Source: Devosia geojensis
Lineage (GTDB): Bacteria; Pseudomonadota; Alphaproteobacteria; Rhizobiales; Devosiaceae
Length of the DNA stretch: 64,000 nucleotides
Assembly (NCBI RefSeq): GCF_000969415.1
Contig: NZ_JZEX01000104.1
Location: 1 to 64,000, forward strand
Reading direction: 5' to 3'
Shown here: positions 2,344 through 12,647 of the stretch, piece after piece
How the letters are laid out: each line of letters opens with the position of its first letter
Position numbering within the stretch: the stretch's first letter is position 1
Notes under the pieces: model-generated
Database searches by the model: none
Seen by the model: the letters and a program-made list of their open reading frames with translations, nothing else
Told to the model about the DNA's origin: nothing
Position numbers and translations under genes: made by a program

Positions 2344-3297
2344 TTATTCGGGCTTGTGCTCGAACTGGCGGCCCGAGATGTGGGAGAGCACCGTGTAGCT
2401 CAGGACCCCCAGGCCATAGTAGGACGAGGCCGAGGCCTCCTCGCGCGGCATGACGATCATCTGGTTGCTCGTGCAGGCAAAGAGGAACTCGCAGAAGTTC
2501 GGCATCACCGCCTCGAGATGGGCGAAGGCGTCGGCCGGGGTCTCGCCGGTGTCGGTGCGGTAGGTGACGAAGAGGAAGTCGGCATCGAGCTCGGGCAGGG
2601 TTTCCGGGCTCATGCGTTCGAACTGGCCTTCGGGAATGGCCTCGACGCGTTCGGGGAAGGTGAAGCCGGCGTCGCGCAGGAGCTTGCCGAGCGCGCCATA
2701 GGTGTGCCAGCTCAACACCTGCCCGTCGACGCCCTGGATGACGTTGACGGAGATGTCGACGGTATCGATGAGGCGCCTGATCTGCTCGACCTGGCCGGCA
2801 TACCGGTCCTTCAGGACCGCCAGCCGGTCCTGCGTCCCGGTAATCTCGGCCAGCACGTCGTAGATCTCGAAATCGCCGCGCGCCTCGTCGTCGAGGACGA
2901 TGACCGGGGCGATGGCCTCGAGCTGCTCGACGGGAGCCGTCTGCCAGGGCGTGGTGATGATGAGGTCGGGCTCGGCGGCGGCGACCGCCTCGATATCGAC
3001 CGGCAGATTGCCGAGGAACTCGATGTCGGAATTGTCGAAGTCGACGCCGGTCAGCACCTTGCTGCCCCGGATGAAACCCTCGCCCTCGGGCGTGGTGCGC
3101 CCGTGGCTGGCGATGGGCATCACGCCGAGCTCGATGAGGGGCACCGTGATGGCAAGGTCCTGCAGCGAGGCGATCCGCTGCGCCTCGAGCGGGATCTCGA
3201 CCGTGCGGCCGAGGTCGTCGGTGAAGGAGCGCGTCTCCTGCGCGGCGGCGGGCAGGGCGAAGAGGGCGGCGATGGCGAGCGCGTATGCGGTCTTCAT
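2344..3297 (-). CDS. Ferric-siderophore ABC importer, periplasmic binding protein A
   Basis: The 317-residue protein has a signal peptide (MKTAYALAIAALFALPAAAQ) and a FepB/FecB-type binding fold. It opens with RSFTDDLGRTVEIP, the usual first strand of this family, and contains AEPDLII and an extended helix between the lobes. It would capture a ferric siderophore for the FecCD permeases encoded upstream. It is the last gene of the leftward operon 8222-2344. It is a close tandem paralogue of the next gene (shared ETRSFTDD, RIASL.DL, LAEITGTQDRLA and SVNVI blocks), pointing to a local duplication followed by divergence of the ligand site. The start at 3297 was chosen for the signal peptide; a longer open frame upstream would run into the neighbouring gene. 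Confidence 0.85.
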   Translation of the reverse strand: MKTAYALAIAALFALPAAAQETRSFTDDLGRTVEIPLEAQRIASLQDLAITVPLIELGVMPIASHGRTTPEGEGFIRGSKVLTGVDFDNSDIEFLGNLPVDIEAVAAAEPDLIITTPWQTAPVEQLEAIAPVIVLDDEARGDFEIYDVLAEITGTQDRLAVLKDRYAGQVEQIRRLIDTVDISVNVIQGVDGQVLSWHTYGALGKLLRDAGFTFPERVEAIPEGQFERMSPETLPELDADFLFVTYRTDTGETPADAFAHLEAVMPNFCEFLFACTSNQMIVMPREEASASSYYGLGVLSYTVLSHISGRQFEHKPE

Positions 3298-3323: not shown

Positions 3324-4268
3324 CTATTGACCGGCCGGTGGTGTCGTCAGGGCGAGGAGCGTGTAGGTGAGCATTCCGAGCGCGCCATAGGAGGAGACGA
3401 ACGTTTCGTCGCGCGGGATGGCGATGAGGCGCCCGTTCTGGCAGGCGGTGAGGAAGGCGCAATAGCCGGGAACGGTCGCCTCGAGCAGGTCGTAGGCGTC
3501 CTGCGGGGTTTCGCCCATCTCGGCGCGGTAGGTGACGAAGACGAGGTCGGCATCCATCGTCGGCAGCATTTCGGGGCTGTGGTCGGACATCTGCCCGTAA
3601 GCGACCTGTTCGACCGCCTCGGGCATGGCAAAGCCGGCATCGTCGAGCACGCGACCGAGGGCGGCGAAGTGCCGGTAGGAGCGGATCTGGCCTTCGACGG
3701 CGGCGATGACGTTGACGGAGGTCGAGCCGGTATCGACCAGGGTGCGCAGCTGACCGATCTGCTGCTCGTAGCGCGCCTCGAGCAGGGCCAGCCGGTCCTG
3801 CGTGCCGGTGATCTCGGCCAGGCGCTCGTAGAGCTCGAACTTGTCGCTCCTGTCGAAGTCGAGAAGGATCGTCGGGGCGATATGGGCGAAGAGCTCCGGA
3901 TCCTGGTTGGTCGAGAGGATGATGAGGTCCGGCTCGATGGCGGCGACGGTTTCGGGATCGATCTCGGTGCCGGTGCCGAGGAAGGCGATGTCGGCGGTGT
4001 CGAAATCGACGCCGGTCATCATCTTGGACGAGCGCATGAAGGACGAGCCGTCCTCTGCCGCCCGCCCGTGGCTGCCGGCCGGCAGCACGCCGAGCTCGAT
4101 CAGCGGCACGGAAAAGAAGAGGTCGTGCAGCGAGGCGATGCGCTGGGGTTCAGCAGGAATCTCGACGGTGCGGCCGTCGTCGTCGGTGAAGCTGCGCGTC
4201 TCCTGGGCGGCAACGGGCATCGTGGCGAGCGCCAGGGCGAAAAGAGCGGCGGTGGCGAACTTCATCAT
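3324..4268 (-). CDS. Ferric-siderophore ABC importer, periplasmic binding protein B
   Basis: The 314-residue protein has a signal peptide (MMKFATAALFALALATMPVAAQ) and the same binding-protein fold as the gene just downstream, 26 bp away. It shares the RSFTDDDGRTVEIP opening, IEPDLII and the LAEITGTQDRLA helix. The mature proteins align along their whole length, but the central lobes differ, so the two may serve different siderophores through one permease. The start uses the first of two adjacent ATG codons (4268 or 4265) behind GGAGGA. No transmembrane anchor or lipobox cysteine is seen, which fits a free periplasmic protein of a Gram-negative. Confidence 0.85.
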   Translation of the reverse strand: MMKFATAALFALALATMPVAAQETRSFTDDDGRTVEIPAEPQRIASLHDLFFSVPLIELGVLPAGSHGRAAEDGSSFMRSSKMMTGVDFDTADIAFLGTGTEIDPETVAAIEPDLIILSTNQDPELFAHIAPTILLDFDRSDKFELYERLAEITGTQDRLALLEARYEQQIGQLRTLVDTGSTSVNVIAAVEGQIRSYRHFAALGRVLDDAGFAMPEAVEQVAYGQMSDHSPEMLPTMDADLVFVTYRAEMGETPQDAYDLLEATVPGYCAFLTACQNGRLIAIPRDETFVSSYGALGMLTYTLLALTTPPAGQ

Positions 4269-4374
4269 GGCGTCCTCCGAGGGGGTCACTCGTTCCGGGT
4301 CTCGATCTCCTGCGCGCTCATCAGCGCGAGAGGGTGGCGGTCACGGCCGAAAGGCTGAAGGCTTTCGTATCGGT

Positions 4375-5274
4375 TCAGGAATGGGCGTGGATCGAGGCCA
4401 GGCGCCAGCGCGGCGTCATTTCCGGGGCCTTCTCGGCAAGGCCTTCGCATTTGCCGTGGACGGGGATGGTTTCGGCAACGAGGTGCAATTCGAGTGGCGT
4501 GTCGCCGGCGGTCGCCGAGACCGTCAGCACGTCGCCGCCCGCCTCGCTCTGCGGCCACGCCGTCTCGCCAAGGCGCACGGCGGTCTGATCGAGACCGTGA
4601 TCCTGCGCCCATTGCATGGCGGCGTGCTCGGCCACTTGCGCGGGCTGGGGCAGTCCGGTGCGGCCGCGATAGGCGGCGAGGTAAATGTCGCCGCGCGCGA
4701 TGGTGGCGAGGAACTCTGCCGCTTGCTCGGGCGCGACCCGCCCATAACGCTGGCGCTGCGGCAGCACCACCAGCGAGGCGGCGAAGCGGCAGCCGCCGAC
4801 GTGGGTCGCCTGCAGCACGTTGAACTTTTCCGGGTCCGCGGCGGCCATTAGCGCCTTGAAGGTCGCAAAGCCGTAGCGCGCGCAGCAGGCATCGCGGCGG
4901 CTGTCGGTGCAGCAGAGGATGACGGTGCGCTCGTCGCGCCGGCCCTCGAACATTTCGCCGGCGGTGAAACGCACGACGGCATCAGCCAGCGCGTCCTGGT
5001 CGGCAAAGTCGGCGGCAACGCCGTCGGCGAGGAGGCTCGGCAGCGTCTGCGTCTCGCCCACCCGGTCGACGAGGGCGACGTGGATGCCGGCCTTCATCGC
5101 CAGCCGCACGGCTTCGGCGAGGGCGGGTTCCATGCCGACGGACTCGAAGCGCGGCACGCGCCACTTGCCGCGCGGCCAGGCGAGGATCAGCACCCGCTCG
5201 GCGATGTTGCCGGTGCCCGGCAGCGGTTCGCCGCGCTCGAGGCAGAGATCGCGGCAGAAGACGTGGTGGGTCAT
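4375..5274 (-). CDS. Sucrase/ferredoxin-like [2Fe-2S] protein (thioredoxin fold) in siderophore operon
   Basis: The 299-residue protein matches the Suc_Fer-like family (relatives of yeast Apd1/Aim32). It has an N-terminal FCRDLCLERGEPLPGT block, then TVILCCTDSRRDACCARYG with the paired cysteines, then THVGGCRFAASLVVLP. In Apd1/Aim32 the cluster is held by two cysteines and two histidines in an HxGGH motif. Here the second position reads cysteine (HVGGC, codon at 4789-4791), so the cluster may be bound by three cysteines and one histidine. There is no signal peptide, so it is cytoplasmic. It sits between the permease and binding-protein genes, which suggests a role in reducing or releasing iron from the imported siderophore. 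That role is inference. The start at 5274 follows an AAGG site. Confidence 0.75.
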   Translation of the reverse strand: MTHHVFCRDLCLERGEPLPGTGNIAERVLILAWPRGKWRVPRFESVGMEPALAEAVRLAMKAGIHVALVDRVGETQTLPSLLADGVAADFADQDALADAVVRFTAGEMFEGRRDERTVILCCTDSRRDACCARYGFATFKALMAAADPEKFNVLQATHVGGCRFAASLVVLPQRQRYGRVAPEQAAEFLATIARGDIYLAAYRGRTGLPQPAQVAEHAAMQWAQDHGLDQTAVRLGETAWPQSEAGGDVLTVSATAGDTPLELHLVAETIPVHGKCEGLAEKAPEMTPRWRLASIHAHS

Positions 5275-5293: not shown

Positions 5294-6358
5294 TCATTGC
5301 GGCCGCACCTGCGCCCGCGCCAGCAGCACGATGAAGATCGGCACGCCGATGAGCGCGGTGAGGAGTCCCGCAGGGATCTGGATGAGGGCGAAGGCCGCAC
5401 GCCCGATGAGGTCGGCCGCGCCGACCAGCAGCGCGCCGATGAGGGCGGTGAGGACGAGGTGGAAGCCCATGCCGGCGTGGGCGAGGCGCCTTGCGGCATG
5501 CGGGGCGATGAGGCCGACAAAGCCTAAGGGTCCGACGACGCTCGTGGCGATGGCGGCAAGGCCGACCGCGACCGTGACGAGCGCCGGGCGCACGAGCTGC
5601 ACCGGCGCGCCGAGCCCGATGGCGGCCGCTTCGCCCATGCGCATCGCCGCCATGGCGCGGCTCATGACGAGCAAGGCCGGCAGCAGCACCGCCGACCAGC
5701 CGGCGAGGGTCAGGACGTCGCCCCAGGTCGCCGCGTTGATCGAGCCGGCGAGCCAGGCGAGCGCCGAGAGCGCCCGGTCGATCTCGCCATAGGTCATCAG
5801 CGCCGAGGTGATCGAGGAGATGAACGCGGAAACGCCGAGCCCCATGAGGATGAAGCGGATGGCGTTGCTGCCCTCACGGGTGTGCGAGAGCCACTGGATG
5901 AGGACGGCAACGAGGATCGATCCGCCAAAGGCGAGCCACGGCCGGTAGATGGGGCCGAGCTGCGGAAAGAGCACCATCACCGCCACCACGGCGAGCGCTG
6001 CGCCCTGGCTGACGCCGACGAGCGAGGGGTCGGCCAGACCGTTGCGCGTCACCGTCTGCAGCGCCGCGCCCGAGAGCGCCATCATCGCGCCGACGAGCGC
6101 GGCGGCGAGGGTGCGCGGGAAGCGGAACTCCCAGACGACGTTGTCGATCGCCCGGCTGATGGTGATGCCGCGCAGGGTCTCGACGAGCTCGTTGAGCGAG
6201 ACGCCGTAGCTGCCGGTCGCAAGGCTCACCGCCGAGAGGGCGAGGAGCGCGAGGACGAGGAGGCCGATGACGACGAGCGCCCGCACCGGCAGGCGCAGCG
6301 CAATGCGCTCGCGCGGCGAGCGCAGGATAACGTGGCGGGCGGGCGCAAGGCTCGTCAT
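5294..6358 (-). CDS. Siderophore ABC importer permease (FecCD type), second
   Basis: The 354-residue membrane protein belongs to the FecCD/BtuC family with about ten hydrophobic segments. Diagnostic blocks are WEFRFPRTLAAALVGAMMALSGAALQ, here interrupted only by normal variation, then NGLADPSLVGVSQGA, and near the C-terminus GPLGFVGLIAPHAAR, the coupling region that contacts the ATPase. A charged 30-residue cytoplasmic leader precedes the first membrane helix. The start codon overlaps the upstream permease stop by 4 bp (ATGA), so the two are probably translationally coupled and form a heterodimeric channel. Confidence 0.9.
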   Translation of the reverse strand: MTSLAPARHVILRSPRERIALRLPVRALVVIGLLVLALLALSAVSLATGSYGVSLNELVETLRGITISRAIDNVVWEFRFPRTLAAALVGAMMALSGAALQTVTRNGLADPSLVGVSQGAALAVVAVMVLFPQLGPIYRPWLAFGGSILVAVLIQWLSHTREGSNAIRFILMGLGVSAFISSITSALMTYGEIDRALSALAWLAGSINAATWGDVLTLAGWSAVLLPALLVMSRAMAAMRMGEAAAIGLGAPVQLVRPALVTVAVGLAAIATSVVGPLGFVGLIAPHAARRLAHAGMGFHLVLTALIGALLVGAADLIGRAAFALIQIPAGLLTALIGVPIFIVLLARAQVRPQ

Positions 6359-7380
6359 CGCGACCTGCGCCGTACCAGGTGGACGAAGAGCGGGGCGCCG
6401 ACCATGGCGGTGATGATGCCGGTCGAGATCTCCTGTGGCGGGATGGCGATGCGCGCCACGATATCGACGGCGAGGAGGTACGCGGCGCCGGCAAGCGCGG
6501 AATAGGGCACGATCCAGCGATAATCGGCCCCGACGTAGAGCCGCACCACGTGCGGGATGACGAGGCCGATGAAGCCCAACGGTCCGGCGAGCGCCACCGA
6601 CCCGGCGGTGAGGACGACGACGGCGACGAGGATCTGGAGCTTGAGCGAGGTGGTCCTGACGCCCAGGCCCTGCGCCACCTCGTCGCCCATGGCGAGGACC
6701 GTCACCTGCCGGGCGAGTGCCAGCGAGAGCAGCATGGCGATGGCGAGCCACGGGCCGGTATAGACGAGCACGGTGATGTCGCGGCCGGCGAGCGAGCCGG
6801 TGAGCCACACGCGCAGGTTCATGAACGTGTCTTCGCTGAGGAGATGCGCGATCGAGATGCAGGCGGCTAGGAACGCGCTGATGGCGGCGCCGGCGAGCGT
6901 CAGGCTCAGGGGCGTCGCGCCGCCCGGCACCCAGCGGGCGATGAAGTAGACGACGAGCGCGGCGGCGAGCGCCCCGGCCGCCGCGATCCACGGGATCAGC
7001 GCCATACTGGTCAATCCGAAGAGGGCGGTGGCCATGACGACGGCGAAGGATGCACCGGCGGTGAGGCCAAGCAGGCCCGGATCGGCGAGCGGGTTGCGCG
7101 TCACGCCCTGCATCAGCGCACCGGCGACCGAGAGGCACGCGCCGACGACGACGGCGATCACCGCGCGCGGCAGGCGCAGGTTCATGACGATGACGTGGTC
7201 GAACTCTGCTGGATCGAAAGCGGTCAGCGCATCGACGACGGTGCCGATCGGCAGGCTCTTGGCGCCGACGGCGATGTGGAGGAGGAAGAGGGCGCCGAGG
7301 ACGGCGATGAGCAGCGGCACGCCGCTCCAGGCGCGCAGCGGCGGCGCACTCGGGGCCGGGCTCGCGGCGATGTCGTTCAT
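6355..7380 (-). CDS. Siderophore ABC importer permease (FecCD type), first
   Basis: This 341-residue FecCD-family permease carries LRLPRAVIAVVVGACLSVAGALMQ-type sequence near residues 50-75, NPLADPGLLGLTAGA after it, and GPLGFIGLVIPHVVR near residue 280, the conserved ATPase-coupling loop. Its start overlaps the stop of the ATPase gene by 4 bp (TCAT on the plus strand), and its stop overlaps the next permease in the same way. It is the partner subunit of the permease at 5294-6358. Confidence 0.9.
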   Translation of the reverse strand: MNDIAASPAPSAPPLRAWSGVPLLIAVLGALFLLHIAVGAKSLPIGTVVDALTAFDPAEFDHVIVMNLRLPRAVIAVVVGACLSVAGALMQGVTRNPLADPGLLGLTAGASFAVVMATALFGLTSMALIPWIAAAGALAAALVVYFIARWVPGGATPLSLTLAGAAISAFLAACISIAHLLSEDTFMNLRVWLTGSLAGRDITVLVYTGPWLAIAMLLSLALARQVTVLAMGDEVAQGLGVRTTSLKLQILVAVVVLTAGSVALAGPLGFIGLVIPHVVRLYVGADYRWIVPYSALAGAAYLLAVDIVARIAIPPQEISTGIITAMVGAPLFVHLVRRRSR

Positions 7381-8222
7381 GCCGGCAGCGCCGCGCGGGC
7401 GCGGGCGCCGAACGGCACGCAGACGAGCCGGCCCGTCACCGGATCGTCGAGCACATGCGCCTCGAGGTCGAACACCTCGCGCAGCCTTTCGGCGGTGAAC
7501 ACGGTTTTCGGCGCGCCGGCGCAGACGATCTGCCCATCGCGCATCATCACCAGATGGTCGGCGTAAGCGGCGGCAAGGCTCAGCTCATGCAGAACGACGA
7601 CGAGGGTGCGGCCGGTCTTGTGGGCAAGGCTTGCCAATAGCTCCATCAGGTCGACCTGCACCTTGAGGTCGAGGAAGGTCGTCGGCTCGTCGAGCAGCAG
7701 CAGGTCCGTCTCCTGGGCCAAGACCATCGCGATCCAGCAGCGCTGGCGCTGTCCGCCCGAGAGCGTGTCGACCGGCCGCTCGGCGAGGTCGGCAACGCCT
7801 GCGACCTTCATGGCGTGGTTGACTGCCGCCTCGTCGGCGCGCGACCACTGGCGCAGCAGCGACTGGTGCGGATAGCGGCCCTGCGCGACGAGCTCGCGCA
7901 CCGTTAGCCCCTCGGGCGCGACGGGCCCCTGCGGCAGCAGGCCGAGTTTCTCGGCAACGGCCCGCGTGTTGGTCTGATGGATATCCTTGCCGTCGAGCAG
8001 CACCGCGCCGGCCGTCGGCGCAAGGATGCGGGCGAGCGTCTTGAGGAAAGTGGACTTGCCGCTGCCGTTGGGGCCGACGAGGATGGTGACCTTGCCGGTC
8101 GGCACGGCAAGATCGACGCCCTTGAGGATGCCGACGCCCGCATAGCCGGCATCGACAGAAAGGGCCTCCAGCCGCGATGGCGCCGCTGCGACACTGTCTT
8201 TTCTGCCAACGCCCGCGTGCAC
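7377..8222 (-). CDS. Siderophore ABC importer ATPase (FecE/FepC type)
   Basis: The 281-residue ATPase energises the FecCD permeases downstream. Visible motifs are Walker A GPNGSGKST (about residue 52), signature LSGGQRQR, Walker B LLLLDEPTTFLDL and the H-loop in VVLHELSLA. The GRYPHQ block is typical of iron-siderophore and haem ATPases. The start is GTG at 8222, supported by GAGGT seven bases upstream. It is the first gene of the six-gene operon running left to 2344, and the TGA-N9-TCA box at 8239-8253 lies just ahead of it, so iron-dependent repression is likely. Confidence 0.9.
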   Translation of the reverse strand: MHAGVGRKDSVAAAPSRLEALSVDAGYAGVGILKGVDLAVPTGKVTILVGPNGSGKSTFLKTLARILAPTAGAVLLDGKDIHQTNTRAVAEKLGLLPQGPVAPEGLTVRELVAQGRYPHQSLLRQWSRADEAAVNHAMKVAGVADLAERPVDTLSGGQRQRCWIAMVLAQETDLLLLDEPTTFLDLKVQVDLMELLASLAHKTGRTLVVVLHELSLAAAYADHLVMMRDGQIVCAGAPKTVFTAERLREVFDLEAHVLDDPVTGRLVCVPFGARARAALPA

Positions 8223-8238
8223 GGTACGACCTCATATC

Positions 8239-8253
8239 TGACTGAGTTCGTCA
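8239..8253. promoter_or_regulatory. Candidate RirA iron-responsive operator (TGA-N9-TCA)
   Basis: TGA-CTGAGTTCG-TCA lies 17 bp upstream of the GTG start of the siderophore ATPase gene. It matches the published TGA-N9-TCA consensus of the rhizobial iron regulator RirA. A second match sits at the other siderophore locus (9573-9587). RirA itself is not in the window. Confidence 0.55.
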
Positions 8254-8364
8254 GGTTTGGCGGTGGACTAGCAAAGCTGATAGGTCAGATCAAGATAAAT
8301 GAAGGCGGGCCCTCGGTTCGGCAACGGGGCGCCGATGTGCTTTGCACGGTGCTTCCCATCCCCA

Positions 8365-8512
8365 GGATGTCACCCCGGCGAAGGCCGGGGCCCATCTTGA
8401 GCTGCTCCAACAGCCGCCAAGTGTGTGAGAGAGCGAAAAGGGGTGGTTGCTGATCTCTCCGCGCCCGTCGGCGCGATCAGGGCTGGATCCCGGCCTTCGC
8501 CGGGATGACACC
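8365..8512. repeat. Inverted palindromic repeats in a 363-bp intergenic region
   Basis: The stretch 8223-8585 has no gene. It holds the iron box at 8239 and then two halves of a repeat: CACCCCGGCGAAGGCCGGGG (from about 8371) and its inverted relative GGATCCCGGCCTTCGCCGGG (ending near 8503). Each is a hairpin of the CCGGCGAAGGCCGG kind, a variant of the element at 2208. It separates the two siderophore transport units. Confidence 0.7.
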
Positions 8513-8585
8513 CGGTGGGTGTTGGTGCATCGTGCCCACCGCCCACCGGGACGGTCCGCGCCGGTGGAACGATCGTCCCAACGGC

Positions 8586-9506
8586 TCAGCGCGTCGACGG
8601 CACCCCATAGATGCGCTCGACGTCGTCGAGTAGCAGGTTGGCCGCGATATAGCCGCCGGCGGTGTTCCAGATGGCGTCGTCGACCGCGTGGGCCTTGCCG
8701 GCCTTGACCACCTCGAGATTCTGCCAGAGCGGGTCGGCGGTCCACTCGGCGGCCTGCGCCTCGGCGGCGCCGTCGCCGGTCTCGTAGGTGAAGTAGAACA
8801 GGCGGTCGCCCTCGAAGTCAGGGATGCGCTCCTTGCCGACATCGTCGGCGAACTCCTGCTTGTCCTGCGCGGCCGGACGGGCAAAGCCCACCTGGTCGAG
8901 GATGAGGCCGGCGAAGGTGTCGAGATAGTAGATGCGGGTGAGGGCGGAGGCGAAGCGCACGAGCGAGATTTCTTCGTTCAACGCATCGCCCAGTTCCTGC
9001 CCAAGCTTTTCGGCGCGCGCGTCGAAAGCGTCGAGAGCGGCCTTACCCTCCTCGCCTTTGCCGGCGGCGTCGGTATAGAGCGCCATGTTGATCTTCCAGT
9101 CGCCGCGCAGGCGCTCGGCCATCACGGTCGGTGCGATGGCGGAAAGCTGTTCGTAGATCTTCTCCTGGCGGGTCTTGTTGCCGATGATGAGGTCCGGCTG
9201 CAGCGCCGCGATCGCTTCGAGGTTGACGGCGGATTCCTCGCCGACGACCGTCACGTCAGCCATGTCCTCGGCGATGTGGGCGTACCATGGGTCGCCGGTC
9301 CAGGAGCGCACGGCGCCGACCGGGGTGATGCCGACGGCGAGCAGCGCCTCGGTGCCCTCGTTGGTGAGGACGACGATCCGCTGGGGAGCGTCGGGCACGT
9401 CGGTCACGCCCATGGCGTGGGTGATCTCGCGGGCGAGGGTGGCGGAGGCCGACAGGAGCGCGGCGGTGACGGCCAGCGCTGCCAAACCGTGGCGGAAGGT
9501 AATCAT
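8586..9506 (-). CDS. Siderophore ABC importer binding protein (system 2)
   Basis: The 306-residue protein has a signal peptide (MITFRHGLAALAVTAALLSASATLA). Its fold is the FatB/CeuE-like class of iron-siderophore binding proteins: DAPQRIVVLTNEGTEALLAVG near the mature N-terminus and LQPDLIIGNK in the first lobe. It is encoded divergently from the permease-permease-ATPase genes at 9622-12495, with the shared promoter region between. The start at 9506 was preferred over 9533 because it begins the signal peptide directly. It is only distantly similar to the two binding proteins at 2344-4268, so the two systems probably take different siderophores. Confidence 0.85.
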   Translation of the reverse strand: MITFRHGLAALAVTAALLSASATLAREITHAMGVTDVPDAPQRIVVLTNEGTEALLAVGITPVGAVRSWTGDPWYAHIAEDMADVTVVGEESAVNLEAIAALQPDLIIGNKTRQEKIYEQLSAIAPTVMAERLRGDWKINMALYTDAAGKGEEGKAALDAFDARAEKLGQELGDALNEEISLVRFASALTRIYYLDTFAGLILDQVGFARPAAQDKQEFADDVGKERIPDFEGDRLFYFTYETGDGAAEAQAAEWTADPLWQNLEVVKAGKAHAVDDAIWNTAGGYIAANLLLDDVERIYGVPSTR

Positions 9507-9555
9507 TTCTTGCGTCCCAAACTTGACAACCATCTTCAGAAAATGGTTGTGGCAA

Positions 9556-9579
9556 ACAGTCAGAATTTAAACTGACTGT
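9556..9579. promoter_or_regulatory. 24-bp dyad between divergent siderophore genes
   Basis: ACAGTCAG (9556-9563) and CTGACTGT (9572-9579) are perfect 8-bp inverted arms around AATTTAAA. It lies between start codons at 9506 and 9622 and overlaps the iron box that follows. It may be an operator for the divergent promoters. Confidence 0.55.
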
Positions 9580-9587
9580 CAATATCA
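9573..9587. promoter_or_regulatory. Candidate RirA iron-responsive operator (TGA-N9-TCA)
   Basis: TGA-CTGTCAATA-TCA fits the RirA operator consensus and lies between the divergent siderophore binding-protein gene and the permease genes. One site could control both directions. Confidence 0.55.
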
Positions 9588-9621
9588 AGTTGAGGGGCGC
9601 GCCCTGTCCGATCTGGCGGCC

Positions 9622-10626
9622 ATGAAACCACGCACGGCGGCGCTTGCCTGGCCGGTCTCGGCGACCTATGCGGGGCTCGCCGTGGTGCTCGTCGTCGTGA
9701 TGGCCATGAGCCTCACCCTCGGTTATCGCATCTATTCGCTGGATCAGGTCTACCGCGCGCTCTTCGCGTTCGACGGCACCGATACCTCGGTCATCATCGC
9801 CAACCTGCGCCTGCCGCGCGCGGTGGTCGCGCCGATGGTCGGGGCTGCGCTCGGCATCGCGGGCGTGCTCGTCCAGACCCTCTCGCGCAACCGCATCGCC
9901 TCGCCAGACACGCTCGGGCTCAATGCCGGCGCCTCGCTCTTCGTCGTCATGGCAAGCTCGGTCTTGGGCGTTTCCTCGCTGATGGGCCTCTCGTTTGCTG
10001 CGGCGCTGGGGGCACTCGGCGCCGCGCTCCTCGTCTTCGGCATCGCGGCGACCGCCGGCGGGCTCTCGCCGCTGCGCATCGTCCTCATCGGCGTCACCTT
10101 CGCCGGCCTCGGCCACTCCGTCGTCGAGGTGGTGCTGACCACCAACGAAGCGCAGATGCAGCAGCTCCTCTTCTGGCTCTCGGGCGCGTTCGTCGACCGG
10201 CCGCTGGCGCTCGCGGCCAACGGCGCGCCGTTCATGATCGTCGGCGGGCTGGTCGCGCTCGTCCTGTCGCGCGCGCTCGATGCCCTGCAGGCCGACGATT
10301 CCACCGCCGCGAGCCTCGGCGTGCCGCTCTTCATCGTGCGCGGCGCGGCGTTCCTTTCCGTCTCGCTGCTGACGGGCGCCTCCGTCGCCATGGCCGGGCC
10401 CGTCGGCTTCGTCGGCCTCGTCGTGCCGCATGCGGCGCGCTGGCTGGTGGGCCTACGGCACTCCCGCCAGATCGTCGCGGCGGCGCTGATCGGGGCGATC
10501 TACGCCACCGCCGCGGATGTCGCCGCCCGCTTCGTCATCTATCCCATCGAAGCGCCGGTCGGCGCGGTCACCGCCGTCGTCGGCGGCGCGATGCTGCTCA
10601 TTCTCCTCAAGCGGAGAGCGGCATGA
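9622..10626 (+). CDS. Siderophore ABC importer permease (system 2, first)
   Basis: The 334-residue FecCD-family permease has NLRLPRAVVAPMVGAALGIAGVLVQ around residue 60, NRIASPDTLGLNAGAS after it and GPVGFVGLVVPHAARW near residue 260. The last is the conserved loop that meets the ATPase. A string of hydrophobic helices fills the rest. It is the first gene of a three-gene unit; its stop overlaps the next start by 4 bp. The ribosome site is weak (CTGGCGG). Confidence 0.9.
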   Translation: MKPRTAALAWPVSATYAGLAVVLVVVMAMSLTLGYRIYSLDQVYRALFAFDGTDTSVIIANLRLPRAVVAPMVGAALGIAGVLVQTLSRNRIASPDTLGLNAGASLFVVMASSVLGVSSLMGLSFAAALGALGAALLVFGIAATAGGLSPLRIVLIGVTFAGLGHSVVEVVLTTNEAQMQQLLFWLSGAFVDRPLALAANGAPFMIVGGLVALVLSRALDALQADDSTAASLGVPLFIVRGAAFLSVSLLTGASVAMAGPVGFVGLVVPHAARWLVGLRHSRQIVAAALIGAIYATAADVAARFVIYPIEAPVGAVTAVVGGAMLLILLKRRAA

Positions 10627-11666
10627 CCAGCATAGGCGCCAGCGCACCCGTTTCGTCCTTTCCCCGCGCGCCGGTCGTGCTCGTCGCCATGCTCGGCCTC
10701 TTCGTGCTGCTTTCCCTCTGCGGCGTCGCCTTCGGGTCGACCTGGATCCCGCTCGAGGAGGTGGCCAAGGTCATCGCCGGGTTCGGCGAGAAGACGCAGA
10801 ACCTCATCGTCCTGCAGCTGCGCCTGCCGCGCGTCGTCGCGGCGATCCTCTCGGGCGGGGCCATCGCCGTCGCCGGCTATCTGCTGCAGAAGGTCACCCG
10901 CAACGAGCTCGCCTCGCCCGGCGTCCTTGGCGTCGTCGACGGGGCGGCGCTCGGCGTCGTCATTTTCCTCGCCGCGCTCTCCAACGAGTCCAACGCCCTC
11001 GTCACCAGCATCGCCTTCCAGCCGCTGGCGGCCGCCGTCGGCGGGCTCTGCGCCATCGCTTTGGTCTTCGCGCTCGCCGGCAACCAGGCGACCTCGGCCG
11101 TGCGGCTGCTGCTCTTCGGCATCGCGGTGGCCGCCGTCGCCAAGGCGCTGACGATGGTGATGATGCTGATCGGCCCGATCTACCGGACGACGCAAGCGGC
11201 GCGCTGGATCGCCGGGGCGGTGAATGAAGTGAACTGGAGCGAGATCCAGGTGACCTTCGTCGCGCTCGTGCCGCTCCTCGCCATCACGCTGCTGATCGCC
11301 CGCCGCCTGCCGCCCGCCGACCTCGACGAGGTGTCGGCGCAAAGCGTCGGGCTCAACGTGCCGGTCGCCCGGCTGCTGATCTTCGCGCTCGCCGCCGCGC
11401 TGACGGCAGTCGGCGTCGCCTTCGTCGGCGGCGTCGGCTTCATCGGGCTGATGGCGCCGCATCTGGCGCGCATGCTGCTCGGGCGCGGCGTCCATGTGGG
11501 GCTCATCGGCAGCTTCCTCATCGGCGCGATGATGCTGGTGGCGGCCGATCTTCTGGTGCGCGTATTGTTCTCGCCGATCGAGGTGCCGGCCGGCACCGTC
11601 ACCGCCATCCTCGGCGCGCCCTATTTCCTCTATCTCCTCATGCGGAAGCAAAGCTATGACGGATGA
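10623..11666 (+). CDS. Siderophore ABC importer permease (system 2, second)
   Basis: This 347-residue FecCD-family permease has QLRLPRVVAAILSGGAIAVAG near residue 62, NELASPGVLGVVDGAA after it and GGVGFIGLMAPHLARM near residue 278. It starts inside the stop codon of the preceding permease (ATGA) and overlaps the ATPase gene by 11 bp at its end, so the three genes are probably made in fixed ratio. With the preceding protein it would form the heterodimeric inner-membrane channel. Confidence 0.9.
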   Translation: MTSIGASAPVSSFPRAPVVLVAMLGLFVLLSLCGVAFGSTWIPLEEVAKVIAGFGEKTQNLIVLQLRLPRVVAAILSGGAIAVAGYLLQKVTRNELASPGVLGVVDGAALGVVIFLAALSNESNALVTSIAFQPLAAAVGGLCAIALVFALAGNQATSAVRLLLFGIAVAAVAKALTMVMMLIGPIYRTTQAARWIAGAVNEVNWSEIQVTFVALVPLLAITLLIARRLPPADLDEVSAQSVGLNVPVARLLIFALAAALTAVGVAFVGGVGFIGLMAPHLARMLLGRGVHVGLIGSFLIGAMMLVAADLLVRVLFSPIEVPAGTVTAILGAPYFLYLLMRKQSYDG

Positions 11667-12495
11667 CCGCACCCACCGCATCGCCGTCCGGGACCTGACG
11701 CTCGCCTACGGGCAGACGCGCGTGCTCGACGCGCTGACGCTGCCCATCGCGCCGGGCAAGATCACGGTGCTTGCCGGCCCCAATGGCTGCGGGAAGTCGA
11801 CGCTCTTGCGCGCCATTCGCCGCCTGTTGAAGGGTACCGCCGGCCAGGTGCTGCTCGACGATGTCGACATCGCCAAGATGAGCGGCAAGGACCTGGCCCT
11901 GAAGATCGGGCTCCTGGCGCAGAACCCGTCGGCTCCCGGCGACATGAGCGTCGAGGAGCTGGTGCGCCTCGGGCGTTACCCGCACCAGACGATGATGCAG
12001 CCCTGGAGCCCCCGCGACGCCGAGGCCGTCGAGCGCGCCATGGCCGGCACCGGCGTCGCCGAACTGCGCACCCGTCCGATCAGCTCGCTTTCCGGCGGGC
12101 AGTTGCAGCGCGTCTGGATCGCGCTCGTCCTTGCGCAGGAGACCGATGTCATCTGCCTCGACGAGCCGGTCAACCACCTCGACATCGCCCACCAGCTCGA
12201 GTGCCTCGATCTCGTGGCGCGGCTGAACCGCGAGCACGGGCGCACCATCGTCCTCGTGCTGCACGACCTCAATCTCGCGGCGCGCTACGCCGACGAGCTC
12301 GTCTTCGTACGCGAAGGCCGCATCGCCGCGCGCGGCACGCCCACCGAGCTGATGTCGGCATCCCTCATCGGGGAGGTGTTCGGCGTCCACGCCACGATCA
12401 TCACCGATCCCGTCCACGGCAGCCCGGTGTGCATCCCGGCGAGCCGGTCGTCGGCGCCGAAGGCGGCGGCGGAGAAGGTCGCTGAGGCAGTCTGA
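11656..12495 (+). CDS. Siderophore ABC importer ATPase (system 2)
   Basis: The 279-residue ATPase has Walker A GPNGCGKST (about residue 41), the GRYPHQTMMQPW block, signature LSGGQLQRVW, Walker B VICLDEPVNHLDI and an H-loop in VLHDLNLAARYAD. It belongs to the FepC/FecE group and serves the two preceding permeases. It is about as long as the ATPase of system 1 and shares its domain plan, but the two are clearly diverged. A paired palindromic repeat follows the stop codon and may terminate the operon. Confidence 0.9.
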   Translation: MTDDRTHRIAVRDLTLAYGQTRVLDALTLPIAPGKITVLAGPNGCGKSTLLRAIRRLLKGTAGQVLLDDVDIAKMSGKDLALKIGLLAQNPSAPGDMSVEELVRLGRYPHQTMMQPWSPRDAEAVERAMAGTGVAELRTRPISSLSGGQLQRVWIALVLAQETDVICLDEPVNHLDIAHQLECLDLVARLNREHGRTIVLVLHDLNLAARYADELVFVREGRIAARGTPTELMSASLIGEVFGVHATIITDPVHGSPVCIPASRSSAPKAAAEKVAEAV

Positions 12496-12529
12496 AGATC
12501 GTTGCGCCTGCAATACTCCGGCAACCACA

Positions 12530-12612
12530 GGGTCATTCCCGCGAAAGCGGGAACCTCCGTTTCCCAGTACCGAATATGCAAACAGAGGTCCCCGCTTTCG
12601 CGGGGATGACCC
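12530..12612. repeat. Paired palindromic repeat (GAAAGCGGG family)
   Basis: GGGTCATTCCCGCGAAAGCGGG with its inverted partner CCCCGCTTTCGCGGGGATGACCC about 30 bp on. It is the same element as at 2208 and again lies between two convergent genes (stops at 12495 and 12648). Confidence 0.8.
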
Positions 12613-12647
12613 GGTGAGGATTGCACGTCGGGTGCGCTACGACGCCC

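Follow-up and report, generated by a model that had tools for sequence, protein, structure and literature searches.

The Suc_Fer gene and its operon

The stretch of DNA analysed here (the window) comprises 64,000 nucleotides of Devosia geojensis contig NZ_JZEX01000104.1. On its minus strand lies an operon with the order ATPase, FecCD, FecCD, Suc_Fer gene and two tandem Peripla_BP_2 genes:

7377-8222, minus strand: ABC ATPase, FecE/FepC-like, first gene of the operon (PF00005; best NCBIfam match FecE, under its cut-off)
6355-7380, minus strand: FecCD permease (PF01032, E 3.6e-91)
5294-6358, minus strand: FecCD permease (PF01032, E 9.7e-82 on 5294-6277; the full frame starts from 6358)
4375-5274, minus strand: Suc_Fer-like protein (299 aa plus stop, ATG start; PF06999, E 1.3e-16)
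3324-4289, minus strand: periplasmic binding protein, Peripla_BP_2 (PF01497, E 1.1e-15)
2344-3297, minus strand: periplasmic binding protein, tandem copy of the 3324-4289 gene (PF01497, E 4.8e-13)

The first three genes of the operon overlap by 4 nt each. The FecCD gene at 5294-6358 ends 19 nt ahead of the Suc_Fer start codon and the Peripla_BP_2 gene at 3324-4289 starts 85 nt past the Suc_Fer stop, so that the Suc_Fer gene does lie between siderophore permease and binding-protein genes, as the first-pass annotation had placed it. Segments of the two tandem binding-protein genes are 71-74% identical at the DNA level. A second FecCD system, which is divergent, occupies 8586-12495. We also observed a GC-rich palindromic repeat with arms of about 35-38 nt, whose copies lie at 2204-2290, 8357-8521 and 12526-12616, one of them inside the gap upstream of the Suc_Fer operon.

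Regarding the Suc_Fer protein itself, PF06999 was the sole Pfam family found at E 0.001, with a score of 61.7 bits against a curated cut-off of 34.9. Neither a SIP (PF04954) nor a FhuF (PF06276, PF11575) domain was found in the same scan, and the NCBIfam scan gave no family matching the protein. The gene is the single PF06999 match in the host genome and the closest named relative of its product, with 76% identity, belongs to Devosia nitrariae.

The leader of the operon contains two candidate iron-control boxes, both a short way ahead of the ATPase start (8222) and both located by a motif scan:

8239-8253: TGA-N9-TCA box, a possible iron operator
8278-8292: second TGA-N9-TCA box

We take TGA-N9-TCA to be the rhizobial IRO motif. 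RirA is described as binding an IRO motif (PMC5863699). The whole window contains 16 such boxes, against a mean of 8.1 and a maximum of 13 in shuffled sequences, and an Irr-type box gave no matches in our scan allowing up to 3 mismatches. Furthermore, we examined the 17 related loci that have an ATPase ahead of the Suc_Fer gene; one or two boxes lay near the ATPase start in 8 of them and were absent in the other 9. The 13 boxes found in total in these leaders exceed the 2.6 expected from the summed per-locus rates, a comparison that is soft because the rates come from whole loci and the leaders are AT-rich. The Suc_Fer operon is probably under iron control. Two further boxes (9524-9538 and 9573-9587) were observed in the divergent region of the second importer, between its binding protein (8586-9533, minus strand) and its FecCD gene (9622-10626, plus strand).

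Fold and the proposed ligand positions

The AlphaFold model, built from 60 sequences, had a mean pLDDT of 92.4, with the lowest values at residues 71-80. The following features of the Suc_Fer gene are those on which a cluster would depend:

4660-4935, minus strand: thioredoxin-like [2Fe-2S] ferredoxin domain, residues 114-205 (AlphaFold model; match to 1m2a)
4909-4911, minus strand: C122, proposed cluster ligand (in 100 of 100 aligned rows; aligns with a cysteine of the thioredoxin-like ferredoxins)
4882-4884, minus strand: C131, proposed cluster ligand, forming C-x8-C with C122 (100 of 100 rows; aligns with a thioredoxin-like ferredoxin cysteine)
4801-4803, minus strand: H158, proposed cluster ligand (100 of 100 rows; cysteine at the equivalent ferredoxin position)
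4789-4791, minus strand: C162 of HVGGC, proposed fourth ligand (cysteine in 83 of 83 proteobacterial rows; aligns with a thioredoxin-like ferredoxin cysteine)

Residues 114-205 superposed on the Aquifex thioredoxin-like ferredoxin (TLF) 1m2a with Z 12.9 and an rmsd of 2.1 over 92 aligned residues, and on that of A. vinelandii, 5abr, with Z 12.1; Foldseek also matched the structure 1f37 (E 7.5e-6). By sequence, the best match among solved structures was an Aquifex ferredoxin at only E 0.18. A profile comparison with seven thioredoxin-like ferredoxins reached E 8.3e-6 (probability 83.5) and paired C122, C131, H158 and C162, in this order, with the first to fourth ferredoxin cysteines. A second alignment showed cysteine in all seven ferredoxins at each of the four columns. 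Model and profile matches therefore back the earlier proposal of a [2Fe-2S] protein of the Apd1/Aim32 type, as far as the ferredoxin domain is concerned.

The protein thus has the fold and four equivalent ligand positions of the Aquifex and A. vinelandii ferredoxins, but it cannot be counted in their four-cysteine class, since the third position is H158. It also differs from them in its extra N- and C-terminal parts and in the spacing of the first cysteine pair, which is C-x8-C here and C-x12-C in most of the ferredoxin rows used. The C-x8-C spacing (C122-x8-C131) within a thioredoxin-like ferredoxin domain is that of Suc_Fer-like proteins, and Apd1 has it too. For Apd1/Aim32, a 2Cys2His cluster in a thioredoxin-like ferredoxin fold has been described (PMC11126956, PMC8482512), and a comparison has been made between the four-cysteine site of 5ABR and the pocket that holds the 2Cys2His cluster in Apd1 (PMC11126956). 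Our protein resembles these bis-histidinyl yeast proteins, which we compared by description, in PF06999, in fold, in the C-x8-C pair and in the first histidine of the block; it is, however, bacterial and encoded in a siderophore operon, and the H-x3-H of the HxGGH block is absent from it, the block being H158-V-G-G-C162. The plus strand reads gca at 4789-4791, so the coding codon is TGC, and the cysteine that had been reported in place of the second histidine is indeed what the bases give.

From the equivalence of positions in the model and in the alignments, the best inference is that the Suc_Fer protein carries a 3Cys:1His [2Fe-2S] cluster. Such a ligand set has been described for mitoNEET and Miner proteins, IscR and glutaredoxin-BolA complexes (PMC12499515), and for mitoNEET and IscR also in PMC9737848; where these two sources treat the set, they give it solely for folds other than the thioredoxin-like ferredoxin. 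The likeness to mitoNEET, IscR and glutaredoxin-BolA would therefore be confined to the ligand set, because our protein matches PF06999 alone and its cluster domain has the thioredoxin-like ferredoxin fold. In EPR, a g-average near 1.945 is given for mitoNEET, as against 1.96 for 4Cys and 1.91 for Rieske clusters (PMC9737848), and for Apd1/Aim32 the reduced ferrous site is placed at 0.75 mm/s (PMC12499515).

Distribution and history of cysteine 162

We aligned 100 proteins, leaving aside the incomplete L060 and L079. C122, C131 and H158 were present in all of them. Position 162 was cysteine in all 83 proteobacterial rows, which include near-duplicates, whereas the 17 other rows had histidine (16) or aspartate (1). 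These 17 proteins come from plasmid records alone and belong to cyanobacteria, Deinococcus and Actinobacteria, with three actinobacterial members, one of which bears the aspartate. A read error, chance or random drift at position 162 was ruled out by the presence of cysteine in 83 of 83 proteobacterial homologues.

Nevertheless, C162 might not be a ligand at all: the fourth ligand beside C122, C131 and H158 might be a different residue, for instance C130 or C276, or GGC might reflect drift at a tolerant position. C130 and C276 are each fixed in the GGC clade (83 of 83) and not outside it (6 of 17), so that other thiols may matter; besides, position 121 is cysteine in 76 of the 83 proteobacterial rows, and the aspartate at 162 in one relative fits a tolerant position. 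However, C130 adjoins the ligand C131, which speaks against it as a ligand, and cysteine throughout one group with histidine in 16 of 17 proteins outside it is the pattern of a ligand-restricted site. Since C162 also aligns with a cluster cysteine of the thioredoxin-like ferredoxins, we consider this alternative unlikely and retain C162 as the fourth ligand.

In an unrooted tree of 92 rows, from which column 162 had been left out, the cysteine state required one change (98/89). GGC is therefore, on these sequences, one clade and not random across the family. The actinobacterial rows were nearest to the C clade in this tree, although the tree's own check flagged long branches that meet. In a second tree, which covered the ferredoxin domain and had seven thioredoxin-like ferredoxins as its root, the C clade (90/92) was nested within the HxGGH proteins and was sister to a cyanobacterial/Deinococcus group (96/87). 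The GGH-bearing L138 is present in this rooted tree and lies outside both the 100-row alignment and the 92-row tree. The order 4Cys to 2Cys:2His to 3Cys:1His is suggested tentatively, since the direction of change depends on 94 columns and on a long outgroup branch.

Regarding the frequency of GGC, the patterns used to search for relatives, of which the best 80 of 210 were kept, had been derived from GGC proteins, so that the 80 of 80 GGC among those relatives is partly built in. Pfam searches, which are independent of GGC, are the fairer test. They gave seven loci over the cut-off in 6 of 297 genomes of the order, the window's own locus alone among 385 genomes of the class, three more loci among 398 genomes of the phylum and one more among 369 genomes of the gammaproteobacterial class. 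Of the 11 distinct proteobacterial loci over the cut-off, ten were GGC and one GGH. Thus, the family is rare in the sampled Proteobacteria, and GGC holds as a rule for a single branch but not for the phylum as a whole. The exception is an HLGGH protein (L170, 2559-3419) in a gammaproteobacterial genome of about 430 contigs (G1087). It lies on a 4.25-kb contig on which we recognised no siderophore genes, and contamination or a separate acquisition may account for it.

Siderophore context and proposed role

We examined the gene neighbourhoods, with flanks of up to 8 kb, around the best 80 of 210 relatives; these loci are related to each other and the counts are therefore not independent. A FecCD gene was present at 58 of the 80, and 68 had a FecCD, binding protein, NIS synthetase or TonB receptor gene. 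An importer gene was the direct same-strand neighbour at 60, ATPases being identified in this count through their resemblance to that of the window. A Pfam check of three Halomonas/Chromohalobacter loci that do not have FecCD showed IucA/IucC synthetases in all of them and, in L083, also a TonB receptor. The remaining 12 loci did not have any of the siderophore genes searched for, and two of these (L060 and L108) have an incomplete flank. In the host genome, only 3.2% of the bases are at a distance of 8 kb or less from a FecCD gene. The association therefore greatly exceeds the background, although the loci are related.

Outside Proteobacteria, siderophore or iron-import genes were found at 10 of 14 annotated loci, three further records having no usable annotation. 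The HxGGH genes of Deinococcus stand in the order binding protein, Suc_Fer, permease, ATPase, and those of cyanobacteria near binding protein, TonB receptor, permease or NRPS genes. The four loci where such genes were not found are those of Tsukamurella, Nostoc C057 and both Gloeocapsopsis copies, one of which lies near MbtH genes. The bacterial HxGGH proteins therefore share with ours the family, the equivalents of C122, C131 and H158 and often a place beside siderophore importer genes; they differ in the histidine at 162 and in their separate branch of the tree.

The GGC motif had also been put forward as the marker of a siderophore-linked clade. The single clade and the strong tie to siderophore genes are borne out, but not the marker role, because HxGGH members share the same context and one Rhizobiaceae/Gemmobacter GGC subgroup (Agrobacterium, Shinella, Allorhizobium and Gemmobacter) is mostly found outside it: no siderophore marker was seen at its loci L066, L068, L069, L071 and L073, while L072, a relative of the subgroup, has one. 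On the three annotated plasmids of this subgroup, from Agrobacterium and Shinella (L118, 8089-18669; L134, 7048-16864; L137, 7266-16669), the GGC Suc_Fer gene comes after a GntR regulator gene. It faces an operon that encodes a hydrolase, an N-formylglutamate amidohydrolase, an RraA/aldolase-type protein, a creatininase, a serine hydrolase and ABC-transporter components. This operon perhaps serves the uptake and breakdown of some iron chelate.

SIP and FhuF-type reductases elsewhere release iron from ferric siderophores. The host genome has three SIP genes and one FhuF-type gene, all on contigs other than the window's. One SIP gene closes an operon of binding protein, FecCD, FecCD and ATPase (contig C169), where it begins 4 nt inside the ATPase gene, whereas the operon of the window has the Suc_Fer gene and no SIP. 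It is most likely, by this analogy, that Suc_Fer fills the slot held by SIP in the other operon. Furthermore, among the 80 loci examined (best 80 of 210 relatives), only one had a SIP gene nearby and none had a homologue of the host FhuF-type protein. Given the parallel in operon slot and this rarity, a putative siderophore-iron reductase is the best reading of the protein. It would share with SIP and FhuF the place beside FecCD importers (as seen for the one SIP of the host genome) and the presumed reaction, although it has no SIP or FhuF Pfam match. For FhuF, a redox potential of -0.36 V at pH 7.4 has been reported (PMC8068687). Among the matches listed in our search we found no literature on bacterial Suc_Fer proteins and siderophores; a Streptomyces protein annotated as 'putative thioredoxin-like ferredoxin', SCO5830, is among the predicted iron-regulated genes of PMC12161575.

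With modest confidence we favour the following explanation as a whole, namely a 3Cys:1His Suc_Fer protein that is likely a cytosolic siderophore-iron reductase. The second domain of this cytosolic protein, of thioredoxin-like ferredoxin fold, would hold a [2Fe-2S] cluster in which C122 and C131 ligate one iron and H158 and C162 the other, the second histidine of HxGGH having been replaced by cysteine through one change in the proteobacterial branch. Its gene shares an operon with those of an importer of the FecCD/FecE type and of two binding proteins. Most likely it would pass one electron to the imported ferric siderophore, and Fe2+ would be released. The fold match, the equivalence of the four positions, the fixation in the clade and the operon are the observed part of this explanation, whereas we infer cluster binding, the identity of the ligands and the iron that each would hold, as well as the redox potential, the substrate, the reductase activity and the iron control.

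The three SIP genes and the FhuF-type gene on other contigs mean that another reductase could serve the importer of the Suc_Fer operon. Suc_Fer might then be a ferredoxin that feeds a separate SIP or FhuF reductase and not a reductase itself, as its ferredoxin fold would also allow. We find this improbable, since residues 1-113 and 206-299, confidently modelled except for 71-80, exceed what a simple carrier would have, and since a SIP holds the matching slot on contig C169 and is so rarely near the relatives. Least probable is a protective role during iron uptake, directed at redox-active compounds or at oxidative stress, with no action on siderophores, as proposed for Apd1/Aim32: yeast apd1 mutants are gallobenzophenone-sensitive (PMC11126956), Aim32 has been proposed to act in allelochemical breakdown and reported in redox quality control (PMC8482512), and not every GGC member has siderophore genes nearby, but the siderophore transport and synthesis genes at most loci, inside and outside Proteobacteria, argue against it.

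A wider possibility, which we put forward only tentatively, is that the siderophore-iron reductase proposed here represents a third cytosolic class beside SIP and FhuF, a thioredoxin-like ferredoxin whose 3Cys:1His cluster arose by the proteobacterial change from histidine to cysteine, other members of the Suc_Fer family keeping two histidines. If this is true, nature would have used three [2Fe-2S] ligand sets (4Cys, 2Cys:2His and 3Cys:1His) at one site of one fold, and natural proteins could therefore show how a change between histidine and cysteine affects potential and proton coupling. Siderophore operons in which neither a SIP nor a FhuF gene is seen would also gain a reductase, and bacterial Suc_Fer proteins, which the annotated records examined call 'sucrase ferredoxin' or hypothetical, would gain a testable function. 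The Suc_Fer protein of Devosia geojensis, with nearly all its close relatives bearing the same swap, thus suggests a little-known kind of iron-releasing protein.
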